Of a stretch of 64,000 bases of DNA, positions 19,258 through 62,775 are shown in pieces. The stretch's first letter is position 1. Every line of letters starts with the position of its first letter. The notes beneath the pieces were generated by a model. It was not told the origin of the DNA, did no database searches, and saw only the letters and a list, made by a program, of their open reading frames with translations. This DNA comes from Alphaproteobacteria bacterium. Lineage in GTDB: Bacteria > Pseudomonadota > Alphaproteobacteria > UBA9219 > RFNS01. The translations under genes and the position numbers were made by a program. The stretch spans positions 124,001-188,000 of the forward strand of contig WGMR01000006.1 of the NCBI GenBank assembly GCA_016124955.1. The letters run 5' to 3'.

Positions 19258-19367
19258 GGCGGGCGCGGCCTTTCGTGAAAAACCTTATCAGGACCCTGGG
19301 CCGTTATGCCCGCCAAAACCCCGCCATACAAACCAGTGCTTCTGCCGAGGCGGGGCGACCTGCGCGC

Positions 19368-20525
19368 TTAAAAGGGACACGGGAATGATGACGGCGTGTC
19401 CCGGTCCACGAAGCGACGCGCCACCGGGTCGGACGATTCCTCGCCGCGCAATATCTTTGCATATTCGGTATATTCCGATTTACCGGTGACAGCGGCCAGC
19501 GCCTCAAGATGCGCTACGGCGGCATAGCGGTACAGTTCCTGCTTCTCTGCCGCGCCTGCCTCGCCTTCGGCGGCGCGTTCCTGGAAGAACAAATAGTACC
19601 GCACGCACATTGCAGCTGCGGTCGAATACAAGAGTTTTTTGTTAAGAACCCGGCCGGTCTCTACAGTGTATTTTTCAGCCGTTTGCACCATAAAGAGAGG
19701 CGATGGCGAGAGCGTTACGAGCTCCAGTTCCGGTGCTGTTCTGCGCACATGGGAAAAATCAAACACGCTGTTAACTTCGCCATCGCGGTGCAAAAGAACG
19801 TTACCGGCATGCATATCGCCATGAATGACAACCGTGCCGTTTTGCGCGACCGATTCCGCGAATGACTTCTTGATATCTTCGATCAGGCTGTTTGTCGCCG
19901 CAAGCGCAGTCACCCTGTGTGCGCTGGTCTCGGCATGCGCCTTGGCAAGCAGGGCATATTCGTAGGCCCTGTCGCTCTCGAGCGGCTTGACATCGTCCTT
20001 GCCGATCATCTTGTCCAGCTTGAAATGCATATCGCCCAGCAAGGCCGCCAGAGACGAGGCATAGCGGGCAACAAAACCTTCCTTATCGCCTTCGATCAGC
20101 GCATCGTTAATGATTTCATGCGATGTTTCACTGCCGGGAATCCACGTCATAATCTGGTAGCCGATAATTTTATCCGAACCGAAAACCGGCATATCGCCTT
20201 CGGCAAAGCTCTTGCTTTCGATCAGCCACGGAACCTGCACGCCGTTCGCAAAACGGATTTTCTGCTGTTTGATGGTCTGCAGCGATTTCACTTCGGTATC
20301 GAAGATTTCCCGCACATAAGGGTTGGTCGTTTCCCGACTGATCTTGATCACCACCATTTCACCGGAGGAAGATTGCGCAAGATATGTGACGCCGTATCTG
20401 CCTTGCCCCAGATAACCCAGAATCTGGTAGCCGCTCAGACCAAGCCGGTCCTGAACGAGCCCGCTAAGCTCTCTTTGTTCATCAGGAGAAAGAAACTTTT
20501 TAACTTTGAAAAATGCGCTAGACAT
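19368..20525 (-). CDS. Kinase-fold phosphotransferase with ePK-like glycine loop (kinase 1)
   Basis: 385 residues. The N-lobe carries a protein-kinase-like glycine loop, LGYLGQGRYGVTYLAQ (about residue 37), and the ATP lysine in VVIKISRE (about 60). The C-lobe has an APH-type catalytic loop, HGDMHAGNVLLH (about residue 236), and a metal motif, VFDFSHV, in place of DFG. The fold belongs to the protein-kinase/APH superfamily; the substrate (protein, small molecule or antibiotic) cannot be told. It is 36 bp downstream of a second kinase on the same strand. No transmembrane or sensor domain is visible. Confidence 0.6.
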   Translation of the reverse strand: MSSAFFKVKKFLSPDEQRELSGLVQDRLGLSGYQILGYLGQGRYGVTYLAQSSSGEMVVIKISRETTNPYVREIFDTEVKSLQTIKQQKIRFANGVQVPWLIESKSFAEGDMPVFGSDKIIGYQIMTWIPGSETSHEIINDALIEGDKEGFVARYASSLAALLGDMHFKLDKMIGKDDVKPLESDRAYEYALLAKAHAETSAHRVTALAATNSLIEDIKKSFAESVAQNGTVVIHGDMHAGNVLLHRDGEVNSVFDFSHVRRTAPELELVTLSPSPLFMVQTAEKYTVETGRVLNKKLLYSTAAAMCVRYYLFFQERAAEGEAGAAEKQELYRYAAVAHLEALAAVTGKSEYTEYAKILRGEESSDPVARRFVDRDTPSSFPCPF

Positions 20526-20561
20526 ACCGTATCCAAAGAAATGAGCTATACCGAGAATGCC

Positions 20562-21806
20562 TTAAAGCCGCGGGTAACCGTGAGCCACGCGCAACCTGTT
20601 TACAACCGGCCGCATGCCTTCCATGCCGTGGCGGTTCAGGCATATTTCCATCATTTCAATGGCCGACTGGCGGCGCAGTATGAACCTGTCATACTTGTCC
20701 GGGTCTGTGGTCATCTTCAGGTGGTCCTGGGCTTTGATGCTTTCCTGCATCCAGTGATAGGCGTTGGCAGCAGCGGCGGCATAAACAAGCCTGTGATCAA
20801 GCTTTCTGCCCGACGCATCTTCATAGCGCCTGATGGCATACTGAAGCACGCTTCCCACGGCCCCAAGGTGCGCAAGTTCGAATTCCGCCAGGGTGTGGCG
20901 CGGTTGGCCCCAATCGATCACGGCGGTCACATCCGTCTTGTTGCCATTGCCGCCAAGCATCAGGTTCGCGAGATTGGCGTCGCCATGCGCCAGCACATAT
21001 CTGCTTTTCAAAATCGGCAACAGGCCGCCAAGATTGATGATGTTGCGGAAAAATTCGTTCCATCCGGCCCTTCTGAAACCGGACAGGATTTCCCGGCTGC
21101 AAACCTTCATAACCGTTTCCACATCCGTGCTGGAAGCGCCCAGCGATGCATCACATCGCGTTAAATCGGCAGGCCCGCCCGGTTTCCCGAGCATGTTTTG
21201 GGTTTGTTTGAACAGAAACTCTTCTGCGGGCCTCACCTTGGCGATCATCTTCGGCTTATTCCAGCGCCAACGATACCGCCTGACTATCTTGTCGGTCGAT
21301 CTGTGCAGTATTGCCAGAACATCGCCAATATTTTGCCCAAGTCTCTGTTTTTCATGCGCTTCCAGTTCATAGTCAATTCTACGCGAATTGGTGGAAGCGC
21401 CGGGCAAAAGCTCCATCGTGTTCCATGCGAAAAAGTCGCGGCCGCCTGCTGCCGATATCTTTTTACGCCTGCCGTCATCGGAAAATTTGCCATGCGCAAG
21501 AGGCGCAGGAATGCCCACCCCGGAATTTGTCAGTTCGCCCACGACCGGCTGGAGCGTATCAAACACCTCCATCTCACGGTCATAGTCACCGTGGCGCTGA
21601 TGCCCTTCCGGATACCAGACATGAAGCTTGATGAGTTTGCCATCGAGCGCGCCGCCGCGAAGCCGGAAAACGCTGCCGGAGCCGCCGGCCGCCAGGAAGC
21701 TATCGACCACGACATCCTGGCCGATCGCGCCTTCTTCGCGCAGCAACGTTGTCAGTTCGGAAAGTTGCGCTTCCGAATATGTAAACTTGCTTGACTCGTC
21801 AGACAT
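20562..21806 (-). CDS. APH-like phosphotransferase (kinase 2)
   Basis: 414 residues from ATG 21806 (GGGA upstream). Features are FLAAGGSGSVFRLRGG (glycine loop, about residue 37), LIKLHVW (ATP lysine), the catalytic HGDANLANLMLGG (about residue 298) and VIDWGQPRH (metal Asp), all in the right order for aminoglycoside-phosphotransferase/choline-kinase-like enzymes. It is longer than APH enzymes (about 270) owing to a central insertion. It is upstream of kinase 1 and divergent from the adenosine-deaminase-like gene. Substrate unknown; sequence similarity to kinase 1 outside the motifs is low by eye. Confidence 0.6.
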   Translation of the reverse strand: MSDESSKFTYSEAQLSELTTLLREEGAIGQDVVVDSFLAAGGSGSVFRLRGGALDGKLIKLHVWYPEGHQRHGDYDREMEVFDTLQPVVGELTNSGVGIPAPLAHGKFSDDGRRKKISAAGGRDFFAWNTMELLPGASTNSRRIDYELEAHEKQRLGQNIGDVLAILHRSTDKIVRRYRWRWNKPKMIAKVRPAEEFLFKQTQNMLGKPGGPADLTRCDASLGASSTDVETVMKVCSREILSGFRRAGWNEFFRNIINLGGLLPILKSRYVLAHGDANLANLMLGGNGNKTDVTAVIDWGQPRHTLAEFELAHLGAVGSVLQYAIRRYEDASGRKLDHRLVYAAAAANAYHWMQESIKAQDHLKMTTDPDKYDRFILRRQSAIEMMEICLNRHGMEGMRPVVNRLRVAHGYPRL

Positions 21807-22126
21807 ATGCGTCCCGGCCCATATACGGGCAAATATCAATTCCAGAAATCATCGCAGGTAATGCTGGCCCCAGAATTACCGTTTCATTGTGCGTGCTGTT
21901 TAATATATCATGCGAAAAACGCAAGTAATTTGTGTCATTTCTAGTTAACACAGCAAAAGTAACGGCCGGGCAAACAGGGCTCGGATCGTCGTTACCTTTT
22001 TTTTGTCCGCGTGAGAGGGAAATGCATATTTATAGCTAGCGAAAGGATTTTAACCGTTGTTCCATATGGGCCAAATAAGCGATAATGCATTGATATTCAT
22101 AGTTAACCGGATTCGTGGTTTTTATT
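21807..22126. promoter_or_regulatory. AT-rich divergent region between kinase 2 and the deaminase
   Basis: 320 bp with no open frame that looks coding. Toward the deaminase, TTGTTC (22057-22062), 18 bp and GATAAT (22081-22086) form a plausible promoter about 34 bp before its ATG. Toward kinase 2 the AT-rich stretch near 21895-21935, with TATATT read on the minus strand, is a likely promoter, but no clear -35 box is evident. No riboswitch-like structure was recognised. Confidence 0.4.
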
Positions 22127-23479
22127 ATGTCGCTATTGCCCAAGGCCGATATGCACGTTCATTTGAACGCTGTGTGGACGGTCGATCTTCTTGAAAGATT
22201 TCTTTTCGAAAACAGGGACGCGCTAGAAGCCATTCCCGAAAGCGAACGCAGCCGCGAAGACTGGCGCGCGCTATCCAAGCTAAAAGCCGCAGCGGTTCTT
22301 GTTGAAGCCCTGAAGCTACGCGGCGACGAGCAATGGTCGGGCAGGCCGGATTTCCGTGCATTTCTCATAGACGTTATTGAAAAGGCGGCGGCGGCGCGCG
22401 GCAAGGAAATGCCCGTCGGCCTCAATGACATGAAAACGCACGAGCTATTCCACCAGGTTTACGGCATGGCCGTGGATGCCATCCGCACGCCTGCCAATAT
22501 GGAAGAGCTGACCTTCGATTACCTGCGCCGCGCCCACGAACAAGGCGTGGTCTATACCGAGATCAGCACATCCGCACTTAACAATGTGCGTGCAGACGAC
22601 CCGGATGCAGCGGCGGCTTATGAGAAAAACATGGATGCCATCTGCCGCGCGATCCAGCGGGCAAACAAGAAGTTCGGGATCGAAGCGCGGGTTATTGTCA
22701 CCGACAAGCGTCATTTGGGGCCACGCAAGGCCGCCGAACTGCTCGATATGTGCCTCGATCACCGCAGAAAATCCTGGCTGGCTAAAAAGTATGTCACCGG
22801 CTGGGGCATGGCGGGCGACGAGCATCAGTTCAGCCTGGGCGACTTTGCCGAAACCTTCAAAAAAGCCAAGGCAAGCGGCCTCGGAACCACCGTTCACGTA
22901 GGCGAAGTGCCCAGCACCGACGTTAGTGAAATCAAGCAGGCAATCGAGGTGCTTGGCGTTGACCGCATCGGCCACGGCATAAAGGCGGCAACGGATGAAG
23001 CCACGCTCGAGCTTATTCGCAACAACGGCGTTGCCGTGGAACAATGCCCGACCAGCAATTACCTGTTGGAAGAAGTCATCAACGGCAATCCTTCCGAGCA
23101 CCCGCTCAATCGTTTTCGCAAGGCCGGCTGCGACGTTGTTCTTGGTTCCGACGATCCGGCCCTGCTTTTTCCTTCCGGGCAAAATACCGCGCACGGCATT
23201 GCCGACGAATATGCGCATATTGGGCGTAATCTGGGGCTTAGTGCCAGAGAACGCATAGCGCTTACGCGCAACGCCATCAACCATGCTTTCATCGATAGCC
23301 GTACGCGCAGGAAACTGTTGCGCAAAGTGCACGAACAAGAGCTGGCCTATTACAGATCCAACAAAATGGGCCGTGATTTTAGCCATGGCAGTTCGCGTTT
23401 CTCAAGGCGGGTTGCGGCGCACGTCGCGCATATTCCGACACACAGGAAAAAGGCCGCCCGCGCCGCCTGTCATATGTAA
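22127..23479 (+). CDS. Adenosine deaminase family protein with long insertion
   Basis: 450 residues from ATG 22127; the frame also has a GTG at 22115. Zinc and catalytic motifs of the ADA family are complete: HVHLN (residues 10-14), AGDEHQF (about 228), HVGEVP (about 258; HAGE in classical ADA), VDRIGHG (about 280) and GSDDPALL (about 340). An extra segment of roughly 60 residues lies between the first His motif and YTEIS, making it longer than the typical 330-350. It may deaminate adenosine or a related purine; the substrate is uncertain. Divergent from the two kinases. Confidence 0.72.
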   Translation: MSLLPKADMHVHLNAVWTVDLLERFLFENRDALEAIPESERSREDWRALSKLKAAAVLVEALKLRGDEQWSGRPDFRAFLIDVIEKAAAARGKEMPVGLNDMKTHELFHQVYGMAVDAIRTPANMEELTFDYLRRAHEQGVVYTEISTSALNNVRADDPDAAAAYEKNMDAICRAIQRANKKFGIEARVIVTDKRHLGPRKAAELLDMCLDHRRKSWLAKKYVTGWGMAGDEHQFSLGDFAETFKKAKASGLGTTVHVGEVPSTDVSEIKQAIEVLGVDRIGHGIKAATDEATLELIRNNGVAVEQCPTSNYLLEEVINGNPSEHPLNRFRKAGCDVVLGSDDPALLFPSGQNTAHGIADEYAHIGRNLGLSARERIALTRNAINHAFIDSRTRRKLLRKVHEQELAYYRSNKMGRDFSHGSSRFSRRVAAHVAHIPTHRKKAARAACHM

Positions 23480-23588
23480 TGACGGCTGCCACCAACTAAT
23501 TTGCATTTCCCCTTTCTTTTTGTGCCATATTGCCGGGCCAGCAGCCGGGCGCCGCACATAGCAGCCAAGAAAGACAGTATAAGTTTCC

Positions 23589-24992: not shown

Positions 24993-25027
24993 GCCGTCGC
25001 CGCATAAACTATGGCCACAATTTATTT

Positions 25028-26074
25028 ATGAAAAACTTTTTTCCAGAAGGCTTGTCCGAAACAAGCCATCATATCGGGCTGTTTTCTCTTGCCGCTGCCG
25101 TCATTGTAGGGGTCCATAATCCCGTGGCATTGGCCATGACCATAGCAACAGCCCTTCTTTTCAAGTCTTTCGGAGGCGGGTCGTTTCTAACAAACGAACA
25201 AAGACCTGCGCGTCTGGAAAAATTGAAAGCGGCATACAGCATAGACCCTTCACACAGACTATACGGGAAATTCCGCCAAGTCGTCGCCATGGTTGAGGAA
25301 CTAAGCGAAGCTGCGGGACTGGACGAAAGAAAAACACCCGTTGTTCTATGCGGATACAACGGCATATGGCGATCAAAAATAATTGATGGCTCCATCAGGG
25401 TCATACATGAACCCGGGCTTGCCGCGGTACTTTCCGTCAACGAAGGGTTTCTTGACGAAGACAAATACACCGATGAAGAGCGATACGGAATACTGGCTCA
25501 TGAAATCGGCCACCTGATGAACCGGGATTACAAAAGATTCCCGCCGTTGGAAAATGCCAGAACCTTCACAAACACCTATGTGCGTATCAATTTTTTTCAT
25601 GTTGCGTTTATAAGCGCCTTGTCTCTTTTTTCTTCTGGCTCCGGTACAGCTGCCGCGCCGCTCGCAACATCATTGATGCTGCTGCCATTCCCGTTTGCTT
25701 TGGGCCTGGCACTGATTGTCCCACTTGTTACGAACTTCATCGCCATGCATTACAGGCGGCAAAGGGAGTTTGCCGCAGATAAAGCCGCGGCCAAGCTCAT
25801 AGACAACCCGGTATTGGTTGCCTATGCGCTGGCAAAACACCACACGTCAAAAAGTACGGTTCGGCCGGAAAAAATGACGGCCCTGTGCATGCAGCTATGG
25901 CGCAAAACGTTTTCCACGCATCCGGCGATGGAAGACAGGGTCATAAGATTACTTAAAATGGCCGATGAACAAACCATAGGCCAGAATCTGGACAAGGTCG
26001 GCGAGCTCCATGCTTTTGTAAGAAGCCGCCGCATAGGCAGCATGCCCCGGCAGCTTAGGGCACAGATGTGCTGA
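25028..26074 (+). CDS. M48-family membrane zinc metalloprotease
   Basis: 348 residues from ATG 25028. The catalytic motif LAHEIGHLMNRD (about residue 155) and the third zinc ligand in REFAADKAAAKL (about 245) match M48 peptidases such as HtpX. Hydrophobic helices lie near residues 17-45 and in a pair at about 190-240, so the active site faces the cytoplasm as in HtpX. It is longer than HtpX and diverged outside the motifs. The 3' end overlaps the convergent ald gene by 20 bp. Probably membrane quality control or regulated proteolysis; target unknown. Confidence 0.72.
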   Translation: MKNFFPEGLSETSHHIGLFSLAAAVIVGVHNPVALAMTIATALLFKSFGGGSFLTNEQRPARLEKLKAAYSIDPSHRLYGKFRQVVAMVEELSEAAGLDERKTPVVLCGYNGIWRSKIIDGSIRVIHEPGLAAVLSVNEGFLDEDKYTDEERYGILAHEIGHLMNRDYKRFPPLENARTFTNTYVRINFFHVAFISALSLFSSGSGTAAAPLATSLMLLPFPFALGLALIVPLVTNFIAMHYRRQREFAADKAAAKLIDNPVLVAYALAKHHTSKSTVRPEKMTALCMQLWRKTFSTHPAMEDRVIRLLKMADEQTIGQNLDKVGELHAFVRSRRIGSMPRQLRAQMC

Positions 26075-48169: not shown

Positions 48170-49150
48170 TCAGAATTCAGGAAAATTCGCCGCAACCCAG
48201 CCTTTAAGCGGGCTTAGCGCGGACCGCGCCAGCCGCGTTTTCATGAATGTCCTTATGCGCGGCACAAAAGCCTTGCGGGGCGATGTTTGCGGCATATCGG
48301 GCGCGCCCAGCATGCCGAGAATGCGCATATGCCGCTGCAGGGACAAAATGGCGCAGGCATCGGCCAGTTGTGCGCCGTCCAGGCCGGGAAAGGCTTGCAG
48401 ATAACGCGCCAGAACGGCTTCGCGCACATCTTCGGGGATATCGCGGCGCACCTGTTCGGTCAGCGAAGCAAGATCGTAGGCGGCGGGGCCGATGCCGGCC
48501 AGTTCAAAATCCAGCAACCCGACAGAAAGCCGGCCTTCGCGGCCCGGGAGGTCCATCAGATTATCGGCCATGAAATCGCGCAGCATCAGCGTTTGCGGCA
48601 GCGCCGCGGGCAGCGCCAGCAGCACGCGCCAAATGGCCGAGAAATCTTCCCGCGCGCCGCCGGATAATGCTGGCGCAAGGTTATCGAGGAAGGGTTGCAG
48701 AAGTTCTATAAAACGTTGCGCATCATAGACGGGTAAATCGATACCCTGCGCGCCGGCGGGCACAAAGGCTTTGTGCAATTCGATCAGCGCATCGGTTGCG
48801 CGCAAAAGAAGGGCGCGCGCATCCGCACCCGCATCGATCATGCGGCCGAAATTCTGTTCGCCGAAATCTTCAAGCAACATAAAGCCGCGCAGGCTGTCGG
48901 CGGCGTAAATGCGCGGCGCCGAAGCGCCGATCCGGCGCAAAAGCGCGGCGATGCGCACAAACATCATGAAATGTTTGTCGGGCGCGGCCTGCATCAGAAT
49001 TGCGGAATGCGTTTGCGCATCTTCCCGGCGTAGCCGCGTATAGCGGCGCTGCGACCAATCGGCCGCAAAGGGCTCAGCCGCGGCCACGGCCCATCCGTTT
49101 TCACGTAAAAACACCTCAAGCGCTTCATTGCCCGCTGCGGCTTCGCTCAT
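48170..49150 (-). CDS. AmgK-like anomeric sugar kinase (APH fold)
   Basis: 326 residues from ATG 49150, which overlaps the tsaE stop (ATGA) and has AGGTGG upstream; an in-frame upstream start at 49180 is less likely. The APH-type fold shows MLLEDFGEQNFGRMI (about residue 85), the catalytic LRDFMADNLMDL (about 190) and LLDFELAGIGPAAYDLASL (about 215). AmgK phosphorylates MurNAc/GlcNAc at C1, feeding MurU in cell-wall recycling. The context with the MurU-like gene supports it. Confidence 0.85.
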   Translation of the reverse strand: MSEAAAGNEALEVFLRENGWAVAAAEPFAADWSQRRYTRLRREDAQTHSAILMQAAPDKHFMMFVRIAALLRRIGASAPRIYAADSLRGFMLLEDFGEQNFGRMIDAGADARALLLRATDALIELHKAFVPAGAQGIDLPVYDAQRFIELLQPFLDNLAPALSGGAREDFSAIWRVLLALPAALPQTLMLRDFMADNLMDLPGREGRLSVGLLDFELAGIGPAAYDLASLTEQVRRDIPEDVREAVLARYLQAFPGLDGAQLADACAILSLQRHMRILGMLGAPDMPQTSPRKAFVPRIRTFMKTRLARSALSPLKGWVAANFPEF

Positions 49151-52138: not shown

Positions 52139-52421
52139 AAGGGACCCGGGCTAGGCTGTGCAAAACAAGGCACGAAAGCGCGCTCGCACACGCCTCCGTA
52201 CCCTAAGGGGTAGCCCGGCAGTGGTTAAAAGAGTCTTGCAGAATCAGGCCCCGGAACCACTTTTGCCGATTCCATCGGGCACCATGGATAAAACGCTGCG
52301 ATCACGGCAGTTTATACGGTTAACCGCCACGGACATGTTCGTGAAACTATTAATTTTTCCTAAACAACCCGCTTTTTTTGTATTTTACGCTCGATATTTA
52401 AGTAGCAAGGATTTTCAAGAA
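52139..52421. other. Gap between the DivL-like gene and the S49-like gene
   Basis: 283 bp. It becomes AT-rich after 52300, with several TA-rich -10-like hexamers (for example TATTTA near 52394) but no clear -35 box. No gene, riboswitch or terminator was recognised. Confidence 0.35.
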
Positions 52422-53588
52422 ATGACTTTGCAGGCATTAGCCCCGGATAACGCAGTACATCCAGATCCCGCACCCGAAGAAACGGAACAGCCTGCTATCG
52501 CACAGGTCGCAAGCATCGCCATCCATGGCGAGATAGGCGCGCATGTGCGCGCCGGCGGCTTTAAGGAAAGCCTTGCCATCGCCGAAGAGTGCAAAGACCT
52601 GAAAGTTCTGGTGCTGGATTTCGATTCGCCGGGTGGCGATAGCACCACCATGAAGGAAATGGCGTATCTGCTGGAAGAGTTTAAAAAAAGAAACCCCGGA
52701 ATCAAGGTCGTCGCCAAGGTTAAAAACGCCTATTCAGCCGCATTCTGGCTCGCGTCGATCTGCGACCATATCCACATGCATCCCGAAGCGGGTGTGGGCA
52801 GCATCGGCGTTTTTCAAGCCCATTCGAGAAAGCCGGGCGACAATGTCGAAATTATCTCGTCACATGCATCCAAAACCGAACTGGACGAAGGCGAACGCGT
52901 CAGAGCACAAGCCGAAGTAAATGCTCTGCATACCGAATTCCGCGAACATGTATATAAACACCTGTCTGTGCGCGCCGTAGCCAACGGCGCGGCGCCATGG
53001 CCGAGTCTCCGGGACCTGGACGCCATGAATACACGGATTGCTGCGCGCAAAACCGAGGCGCATGCCCTTGCCTACAGGGTTGCCAAAATCATCAACGGCA
53101 AAAGCTGGATCTCACCCGCTCTTTTGCGATTCAAGCTGGTGCGAAACCTGATAACATGGCGCATGAAAGATGTTGAGCTTAACGCCATGACGGGGCTGGT
53201 CGATGAATTGATAAAAGCCGGACGCGAAGCGGAAGCGCGGCATAAAAGGCGGCCATATACCGTCACGCCGGCCGAACTGGCAAAAAAGTTTGAACAAAAA
53301 GTCGAATTTGGCATGACGAGGAACCATCCGCACGGGTTCCATCACCGTCTGCTCTACCAAACGCACACCTTTGACGCGAACGAGGCGCGCGCGCACGGGA
53401 TCGGTGAAAGCGTGGGATACGACGAAGAATTCGCAGGCGTTTTACAGAAAAAGTTTGGCATCACCGAACCCGGCATGCTCAGCATTTCGGGCGGCGACTT
53501 GAATCAGATAGCCATCTTCATCAGTCTGGCAGCCAAGCGCGCACAAAAACTGGTTGCACGCACCAAAGCCGCCTATACGCCAAACTGA
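52422..53588 (+). CDS. S49-like (SppA/ClpP-fold) protein without signal peptide
   Basis: 388 residues from ATG 52422 (an upstream frame reaches 52158, but this start has AAGGA spaced well). The S49 core shows VLVLDFDSPGGDSTTMKE (about residue 63), the candidate nucleophile Ser in KNAYSAAFWLASICDHI (about 101) and AGVGSIGVF (about 125), the same order as SppA and phage head protease relatives. No signal or membrane helix is visible, so it is probably cytoplasmic. A basic C-terminal region of about 200 residues is unlike SppA. Its stop is directly adjacent to the convergent ahcY stop. Confidence 0.62.
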   Translation: MTLQALAPDNAVHPDPAPEETEQPAIAQVASIAIHGEIGAHVRAGGFKESLAIAEECKDLKVLVLDFDSPGGDSTTMKEMAYLLEEFKKRNPGIKVVAKVKNAYSAAFWLASICDHIHMHPEAGVGSIGVFQAHSRKPGDNVEIISSHASKTELDEGERVRAQAEVNALHTEFREHVYKHLSVRAVANGAAPWPSLRDLDAMNTRIAARKTEAHALAYRVAKIINGKSWISPALLRFKLVRNLITWRMKDVELNAMTGLVDELIKAGREAEARHKRRPYTVTPAELAKKFEQKVEFGMTRNHPHGFHHRLLYQTHTFDANEARAHGIGESVGYDEEFAGVLQKKFGITEPGMLSISGGDLNQIAIFISLAAKRAQKLVARTKAAYTPN

Positions 53589-61625: not shown

Positions 61626-62333
61626 TCAGAATTTCATAATCGGCGTCGGCTGCCGATCAAAATGTTCGACCCCTTCAAGCTTCTTGAGTTTGACGACGAA
61701 CAGCGTCGTAAAAGGCACGACAAGGGTTTCATAGGCAATCTTGATAAGCCATGCGGTTATAATCATGGAAACGACCACTTCGGTCGGAACCACGCCAAGA
61801 AATGCTATGCCATAAAAAGCAATGCTGTCGACAAACTGCGCAGCCACCGTTGAAACAACGGCGCGAACCGGAAAATTCCGCGCGGCCGACCGTATCTTCA
61901 TTCGTGACATTACCCATGAATTGGTAAATTCGCACAGCAGGTAGGCCACATAGGATGCAAGCGCAACGCGCGGCAAAGCGCCATGAATTTCCGCAAACGC
62001 TTCCTGCTGCGTATAGTCGGCCGCGGGTGGTAAAAATATAGAAATCTGCGTGAAAGCCAGAAGCATTAAGCAGGAAACGAAGCCCATCCAGATCAACCGC
62101 CGGGTGCGGTTAAACCCGTAAACTTCGGTCAGAATATCGCCGAAAACGCAACTGAGCGGGTAAATCAATATGGATGCGCTAAGCACAAACGGCCCTGCCT
62201 GAAACAGCTTGCCTGCCGTTACCCACGTTATCAGAAGGGCACAAATATATAGGGATCCGACAATCTCTATATAGCGCGGCTGCCATTGCTTGTCGTTACC
62301 GGTTTCTTTCAGGCTTAAATCGCGCTCAAGCAT
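61626..62333 (-). CDS. yhhQ: Queuosine precursor transporter (YhhQ family)
   Basis: 235 residues from ATG 62333, with GGAGG about 7 nt upstream; the frame to 62378 overlaps the neighbouring gene. Six membrane helices; family stretches such as LIYPLSCVFGDILTEVYG (about residue 58), YVAYLLCEFTNSWVMSRMK and VAAQFVDSIAFYGIAFLG are present. It imports queuine/preQ precursors for tRNA queuosine. It ends just beyond the terminator of the preceding gene. Confidence 0.92.
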   Translation of the reverse strand: MLERDLSLKETGNDKQWQPRYIEIVGSLYICALLITWVTAGKLFQAGPFVLSASILIYPLSCVFGDILTEVYGFNRTRRLIWMGFVSCLMLLAFTQISIFLPPAADYTQQEAFAEIHGALPRVALASYVAYLLCEFTNSWVMSRMKIRSAARNFPVRAVVSTVAAQFVDSIAFYGIAFLGVVPTEVVVSMIITAWLIKIAYETLVVPFTTLFVVKLKKLEGVEHFDRQPTPIMKF

Positions 62334-62361
62334 ACCGAGCCTCCAGTTGTGTTTTTTAAGT

Positions 62362-62775
62362 CTAGCCTTTTTGCTCACCCAGCGCCAGAACGCGCTTCCA
62401 CTGCGCGGCCGTTACGGGCGAAACCGAAAGCCTGCCCTGCCGTACCAGCGCCATATCCTTCAGCGCCTTGTCGGCCTTGATCTGCGCCAGCGTGACCGGT
62501 TTCTTCAACGCCCGCACGGGCACCACATCCACCATCACGAACTTGCCTGCCTTGTCGCTTTTGTCGGGATAGGCGGCACGGACGATCTTCATAATGCCCA
62601 CAATCTCCTTCCCTTCGTTGGAATGGTAGAAGAAAGCCTGATCGCCCGGCGTCATCGCGCGCATATTGTTAGCCGCCTGATGGTTGCGCACACCGTCCCA
62701 GCCGCCCTTGCCGTCACGCGCCAGCTCGGCCCACGGATAGACATGCGGTTCCGATTTCATCAGCCAATAGGCCAT
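62362..62775 (-). CDS. EVE-domain protein
   Basis: 137 residues. It has WLMKSEPHVYPWAELARDGK near the start, GWDGVRNHQAANNMRAMTPG and DQAFFYHSNEGKEIVGIMKI, matching the PUA-like EVE domain (thymocyte nuclear protein 1 type), which may bind modified nucleotides. The ATG directly follows the gpsA stop. Function is not established. Confidence 0.93.
   Translation of the reverse strand: MAYWLMKSEPHVYPWAELARDGKGGWDGVRNHQAANNMRAMTPGDQAFFYHSNEGKEIVGIMKIVRAAYPDKSDKAGKFVMVDVVPVRALKKPVTLAQIKADKALKDMALVRQGRLSVSPVTAAQWKRVLALGEQKG

Follow-up and report, generated by a model that had tools for sequence, protein, structure and literature searches.

Two APH-fold kinase paralogues and a divergently oriented adenosine-deaminase-family gene between guaB and rsmB in an alphaproteobacterial genome

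Results

The locus lies within a stretch of 64,000 nucleotides, hereafter the window, from an Alphaproteobacteria bacterium (assembly GCA_016124955.1, contig WGMR01000006.1, positions 124,001 to 188,000). Flanked by guaB on one side and by a gene for an RsmB/F-type methyltransferase (rsmB) on the other, three open reading frames are present at the positions given by an earlier note on this DNA, which had also named both flanking genes correctly. Two of them form a tandem on the minus strand: K1 (19368..20525) encodes an APH-fold, kinase-like protein of 385 amino acids with a Gly-rich loop, VIK, HGDMHAGN and DFS, and K2 (20562..21806), 36 bp upstream of it, encodes an APH-fold protein of 414 amino acids. 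The third gene (22127..23479, plus strand), divergent from the kinases, encodes an adenosine deaminase (ADA)-family (PF00962) amidohydrolase of 450 amino acids. The start codons of K2 and the ADA-family gene are uncertain; we adopted the ATGs at 21806 and 22127, while the open reading frame listing also offers a TTG at 21839 for K2 (425 amino acids) and a GTG at 22115 for the ADA-family gene (454 amino acids). In GC-rich DNA long frames are weak evidence by themselves (the longest at the locus has 458 codons, compared with a mean of 194 and a maximum of 415 in 300 Markov simulations), so it is the domain matches described below that carry the case for real genes.

The divergent intergenic region (21807..22126) measures 320 bp between the two ATGs and is AT-rich, as had been noted, with a GC content of 0.44 in the 500-bp step 21750-22249. 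Promoter-like sites in this region were no commoner than in shuffled sequence, and an Rfam search of it returned no match.

Both kinases match Pfam APH (PF01636) above its gathering score of 23.2, K1 with 41.2 bits (E = 2e-10) and K2 with 38.5 bits (E = 1.5e-9). In the alignment each retains the Gly-rich loop, the Lys, the Glu, HGDxxxxN and the following Asp, which together with the scores places both in the APH family and bears out the earlier description of a kinase-fold pair with intact catalytic motifs. The same description called the two unrelated-looking, and this does not hold: a single BLASTP comparison aligned 272 positions at 21% identity (E = 1e-7), and judged by their sequences the two proteins are distantly related paralogues. 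In total, three APH matches occur in this genome, namely K1, K2 and one at window positions 48380-49075. K1 and K2, which would stem from an old duplication, most likely phosphorylate small molecules with ATP. The structure model of K2 was useless (pLDDT 40).

Relatives of the kinases were sought at several taxonomic depths. K1 matched 1 of 59 relatives and 1 of 385 class genomes, its own genome both times. K2 likewise matched only its own genome among the 59 relatives, and its own plus six others among the class genomes (7/385); the matches in those six span just 45-95 residues, five over the catalytic region and one (L057) over residues 80-174. With a K1/K2 profile, 1 of 398 genomes of the phylum was found at E<=1e-5 and 4 of 33 of the order at 1e-3, three of the latter (G003, G032 and G019) by the catalytic region only. 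No full-length relative of either kinase was found in plasmids or phages, in peptide-pattern scans of viral contigs or, for K2, in a peptide-pattern scan of genome contigs. Because pattern scans reach close relatives only and the samples represent part of the known diversity, this absence is provisional. Within the samples searched, K1 and K2 make up a family of two with no full-length relatives, a small gap in annotation.

A same-strand pair of APH-like genes in G003 (L098), with a relative in G023, is a look-alike that matches K1 and K2 around the catalytic region only (~92 columns). These genes belong to another APH-like family, of ~410-435 amino acids (L098 4330-7230; L130 3089-4324 in G023) that is 37% identical between the two genomes, and its G003 members are neighbouring genes near apt. 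Separately, an 824-residue frame in G018 (L138 3860-6331), read from its translation, seemingly joins isochorismatase-like, APH-like kinase and dual-specificity-phosphatase-like parts.

We then turn to the ADA-family protein, which matches Pfam A_deaminase (PF00962) with 177.4 bits against a gathering score of 27 (E = 5e-52). This is its sole Pfam match above cut-off, and the gene is the only PF00962 match in its genome. Alignments show that the catalytic and metal-binding set is kept (H10, H12, H257, E260, H283, D342 and D343), placing the protein in the family and agreeing with the earlier claim of a 450-residue ADA-like enzyme with a complete zinc site. The structure model, built from five sequences (pLDDT 80, pTM 0.81), is an ADA barrel whose first strand falls at residues 6-12, and its best PDB matches are adenosine and adenine deaminases and their relatives (Z 34-38). 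The long insertion reported before was likewise recovered: it comprises ~60 residues (about 38-100, encoded by 22238..22426 on the plus strand), has no counterpart that long in 15 other aligned ADAs, and is modelled with moderate confidence (block pLDDT 61-86) as mainly helical, with helices at 43-65, 68-71 and 74-90.

Residue 14, in the motif HVHLN, is Asn. The equivalent residue of mouse ADA, Asp19, binds adenosine through its 5'- and 3'-hydroxyls, as stated in excerpts of PMC12669630; with Asn14 in place of this Asp, the protein lacks a residue expected of an adenosine deaminase in the strict sense. On one reading of the locus, the protein is nonetheless an ordinary deaminase of adenosine or adenine that serves purine salvage, accompanied by functionally unrelated kinases. 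It draws on the best NCBIfam profile, PRK09358 adenosine deaminase (211 bits), and on the top Foldseek match, adenine deaminase 3rys. However, the scores lie under the equivalog cut-offs (199.3 vs 216.55 bits for TIGR01430), and Asn occupies a position that is Glu (HxHxE) in 34 of 43 aligned ADA-family rows and Asp in the mouse enzyme. We regard a plain deaminase as possible, with the balance of evidence leaning away from it.

In the ADA tree, the window protein groups with L003 (HIHANA), L092 (HVHISM, from a Micavibrio MAG) and L058 (HVHING) with support of 97/96, and all four are without an acid at the Asp19 position. Long-branch attraction is possibly behind this grouping: L003 and L092 were flagged as long branches, L092 also for odd composition. 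The tree retained L059 and L084, in which a misread start brought in unrelated leading residues. Two further sequences, L009 (HEHLTA) and L014 (HCHLLG), also have no acid at this position and fall outside the group; loss of the acid is thus not unique to the relatives of the window protein.

The ADA family is patchily distributed, with matches in 11 of 59 relatives at E<=0.001 and in 58 of 385 class genomes at E<=1e-20 (own genome included in both counts), and none exceeds 38% identity among the matches listed once its own copy is set aside. Plasmids (102 records; <=34% identity in the listed records) and phages (8 records) also have matches, all of them over less than 80% of the query, which suggests that the family as such is mobile. 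Pattern scanning detected no relative in viral contigs, and the alignment of the window and L003 proteins, used to scan genome contigs, yielded 4 loci from 105 stretches. The neighbours of ADA relatives were examined at six loci (L003/L086, L087, L088, L090, L091 and L092). As read from translations, they include glycosyltransferase and MlaC-like genes at L086, gpsA at L087, and hydrolase and TrmFO-like genes at L092. An ADA gene beside an AarF/ABC1-type kinase in G013 (L088 6493-8980) was rejected as a counterpart of the window locus, as it represents another ADA branch (HIEG) and another type of kinase. Judged by eye, AarF/ABC1-like kinases are also found in G001, G017 and G018 (L132, L133 and L138).

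The three genes stand out in composition. GC content is 0.60-0.65 ahead of the block, drops to 0.51-0.58 across the genes and is lowest around the divergent gap. With GC values of 0.53-0.56, the three genes rank within the bottom 10 of 48 roughly called window ORFs; their GC3 reaches 0.62-0.65, compared with 0.70-0.76 in most of the others. Two more low-GC genes lie elsewhere in the window, an S49-peptidase-like gene (52158-53588, GC 0.53) and a Vut_1 transporter gene (61626-62378, GC 0.50).

The stretch from the guaB stop to the rsmB start (19258..23588) spans 4.3 kb in the window and is missing where the two genes adjoin in genomes of a sister family (f2). There, the coding ends of guaB and rsmB are separated by 11 bases in G008 and G004, 40 in G012, 130 in G010 and 748 in G006, and in G008 and G012 rsmB is followed, as in the window, by ald and then a gene without a Pfam match. 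The adjacency is known from this sister family only, and the listed relatives include no genome of the same genus. Within the window's own family, G001 and G002 showed no rsmB in the 17-18 kb surrounding guaB, and the contig of G003 ends inside guaB; in family f3, rsmB was found in the ~1.5-kb guaB flanks of 0 of 14 genomes, some of these flanks being cut by contig ends. A second extra gene near the block, for an M48 peptidase (25019-26074, GC about 0.50), sits between rsmB and ald and is missing at that position in G008 and G012.

No scar, flanking tRNA or mobility gene was found around the block (the sole tRNA is at 34.6 kb), and repeats at its edges amounted to short, chance-like matches. 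Given the low GC and GC3 and the interrupted guaB-rsmB neighbourhood, the block appears to have been inserted at this junction in a lineage-specific manner; loss in the relatives would be a less economical, and less probable, explanation. That guaB has an ADA-family gene for a neighbour follows from the block sitting in this junction. The earlier view of the genes as accessory rather than core fits the low GC, the interruption and the absence of K1/K2 relatives from near genomes. Low GC, a lack of close relatives and diverged motifs could also indicate pseudo-enzymes or decaying genes heading for loss, but none of the three frames is interrupted, and both kinases and the deaminase retain their catalytic residues, which makes decay the least probable of the readings considered here and a very improbable one.

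The note had further proposed a linked purine- or nucleoside-signalling or defence module. As a three-gene functional unit, such a module would pair a kinase with the deaminase, the former producing or sensing a phosphorylated nucleotide on which the latter acts. Tight packing, the divergent arrangement and the accessory position are suggestive of such a link, and PADLOC gave one strong defence-profile match, that of the window ADA to the ADA part of the CARF_ADA profile (2e-36). The structural matches of the ADA model include RdrB of RADAR, and Cad1 offers a precedent for an ADA-fold protein acting in defence, according to excerpts of PMC11645235. However, the window protein has no CARF domain, no RdrA-like ATPase was found among the 8 neighbouring genes scanned, and the ADA gene is adjoined by K2 and rsmB in place of the RdrA gene that marks RADAR. 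K1 matches PD-T4-6 (4e-6) and mad6 (1.8e-5) weakly and over residues about 30-91 (the N-lobe) only, and K2 has no defence-kinase match in PADLOC, so neither shows the full-length profile match of the PD-T4-6/MADS defence kinases. The flanking genes are housekeeping genes, and different genes surround the nearest of the ADA relatives that were inspected. The note had also suggested looking for the three-gene neighbourhood in other genomes and took its absence as evidence against a module; the three genes never occurred together in the samples searched, although this is hardly a real test, as K1 and K2 have no full-length relatives in those samples. We consider a functional module unlikely and, with partners absent, reject a defence module; the defence story has nothing at present to build on. 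More doubtful again is an undescribed system in which tandem APH-fold kinases and an Asn-type ADA share one pool of phosphorylated adenine nucleotide, such as a nucleotide deaminase under kinase control that is directed against phage or used for signalling.

Discussion

We favor, with a probability of roughly 0.6, a reading of the block as accessory cargo in the guaB-rsmB junction, consisting of a deaminase of a 5'- or N6-modified adenine nucleoside or nucleotide and two orphan metabolite kinases, with no more than a possible functional link between them. The ADA-family protein most likely acts on an adenine nucleoside or nucleotide, hydrolysing its 6-amino or N6-alkylamino group through the usual metal-activated water. 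Recognition of the 5' position and the ribose would be altered, since Asn replaces the acidic residue through which ADA contacts the ribose hydroxyls. On the most economical reading, the block would serve salvage or detoxification rather than defence, and its genes may act independently of one another. Overall, we see here an accessory block of an ordinary kind, in which one enzyme variant is of mild interest and the two kinases are orphans.

Compared with known systems, K1 and K2 resemble the APH phosphotransferase family (PF01636) in their catalytic motifs and in scoring above the gathering threshold. They differ from it in their length (385 and 414 amino acids) and in having no full-length relatives in the samples, and they score far under the cut-offs of named resistance kinases. 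The window ADA shares with bacterial adenosine and adenine deaminases (3rys, 6n9m and 4gxw) the TIM barrel and the HxH, HxxE, H and DD set. Unlike the bacterial ADAs described by PF00962 and TIGR01430/PRK09358, it has Asn at the Asp19 position, the ~60-residue insertion, a longer C-terminal tail and scores under the equivalog cut-offs.

With the CRISPR CARF-adenosine deaminase Cad1/CAAD the window protein has in common an ADA domain from which the Asp19 acid has been lost: excerpts of PMC12669630 give Gly at this position in TaqCad1, and Cad1 is described there and in parts of PMC11645235 as acting on a phosphorylated adenine nucleotide, ATP. The two differ in that the window protein has no CARF domain, its first barrel strand beginning already at residue 6, and in that the equivalent of Asp296 is kept as D343, whereas it is Asn in TaqCad1 (excerpts of PMC12669630).

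The same fold is found in the N6-methyl-AMP deaminase MAPDA/ADAL (8qch, 6ijm and 6iv5; Z 34-36). Human ADAL (8qch) has the motif HAHLNG, and the window protein, with HVHLN, shares the Asn of this HxHxN motif. The structural alignment gives ~21% identity, and ADAL is not the closest family by sequence. We take human ADAL to be an N6-methyl-AMP-deaminase-type enzyme acting on a phosphorylated adenine nucleotide. By analogy with ADAL and Cad1, both non-acidic at this position and both active on phosphorylated adenine nucleotides, the window ADA may take a substrate modified at the 5' or N6 position. Should Asn-type deaminases prove to use phosphorylated or N6-methylated adenine nucleotides as substrates, their annotation would have to be revised, and they would represent the bacterial equivalents of ADAL/MAPDA in function.
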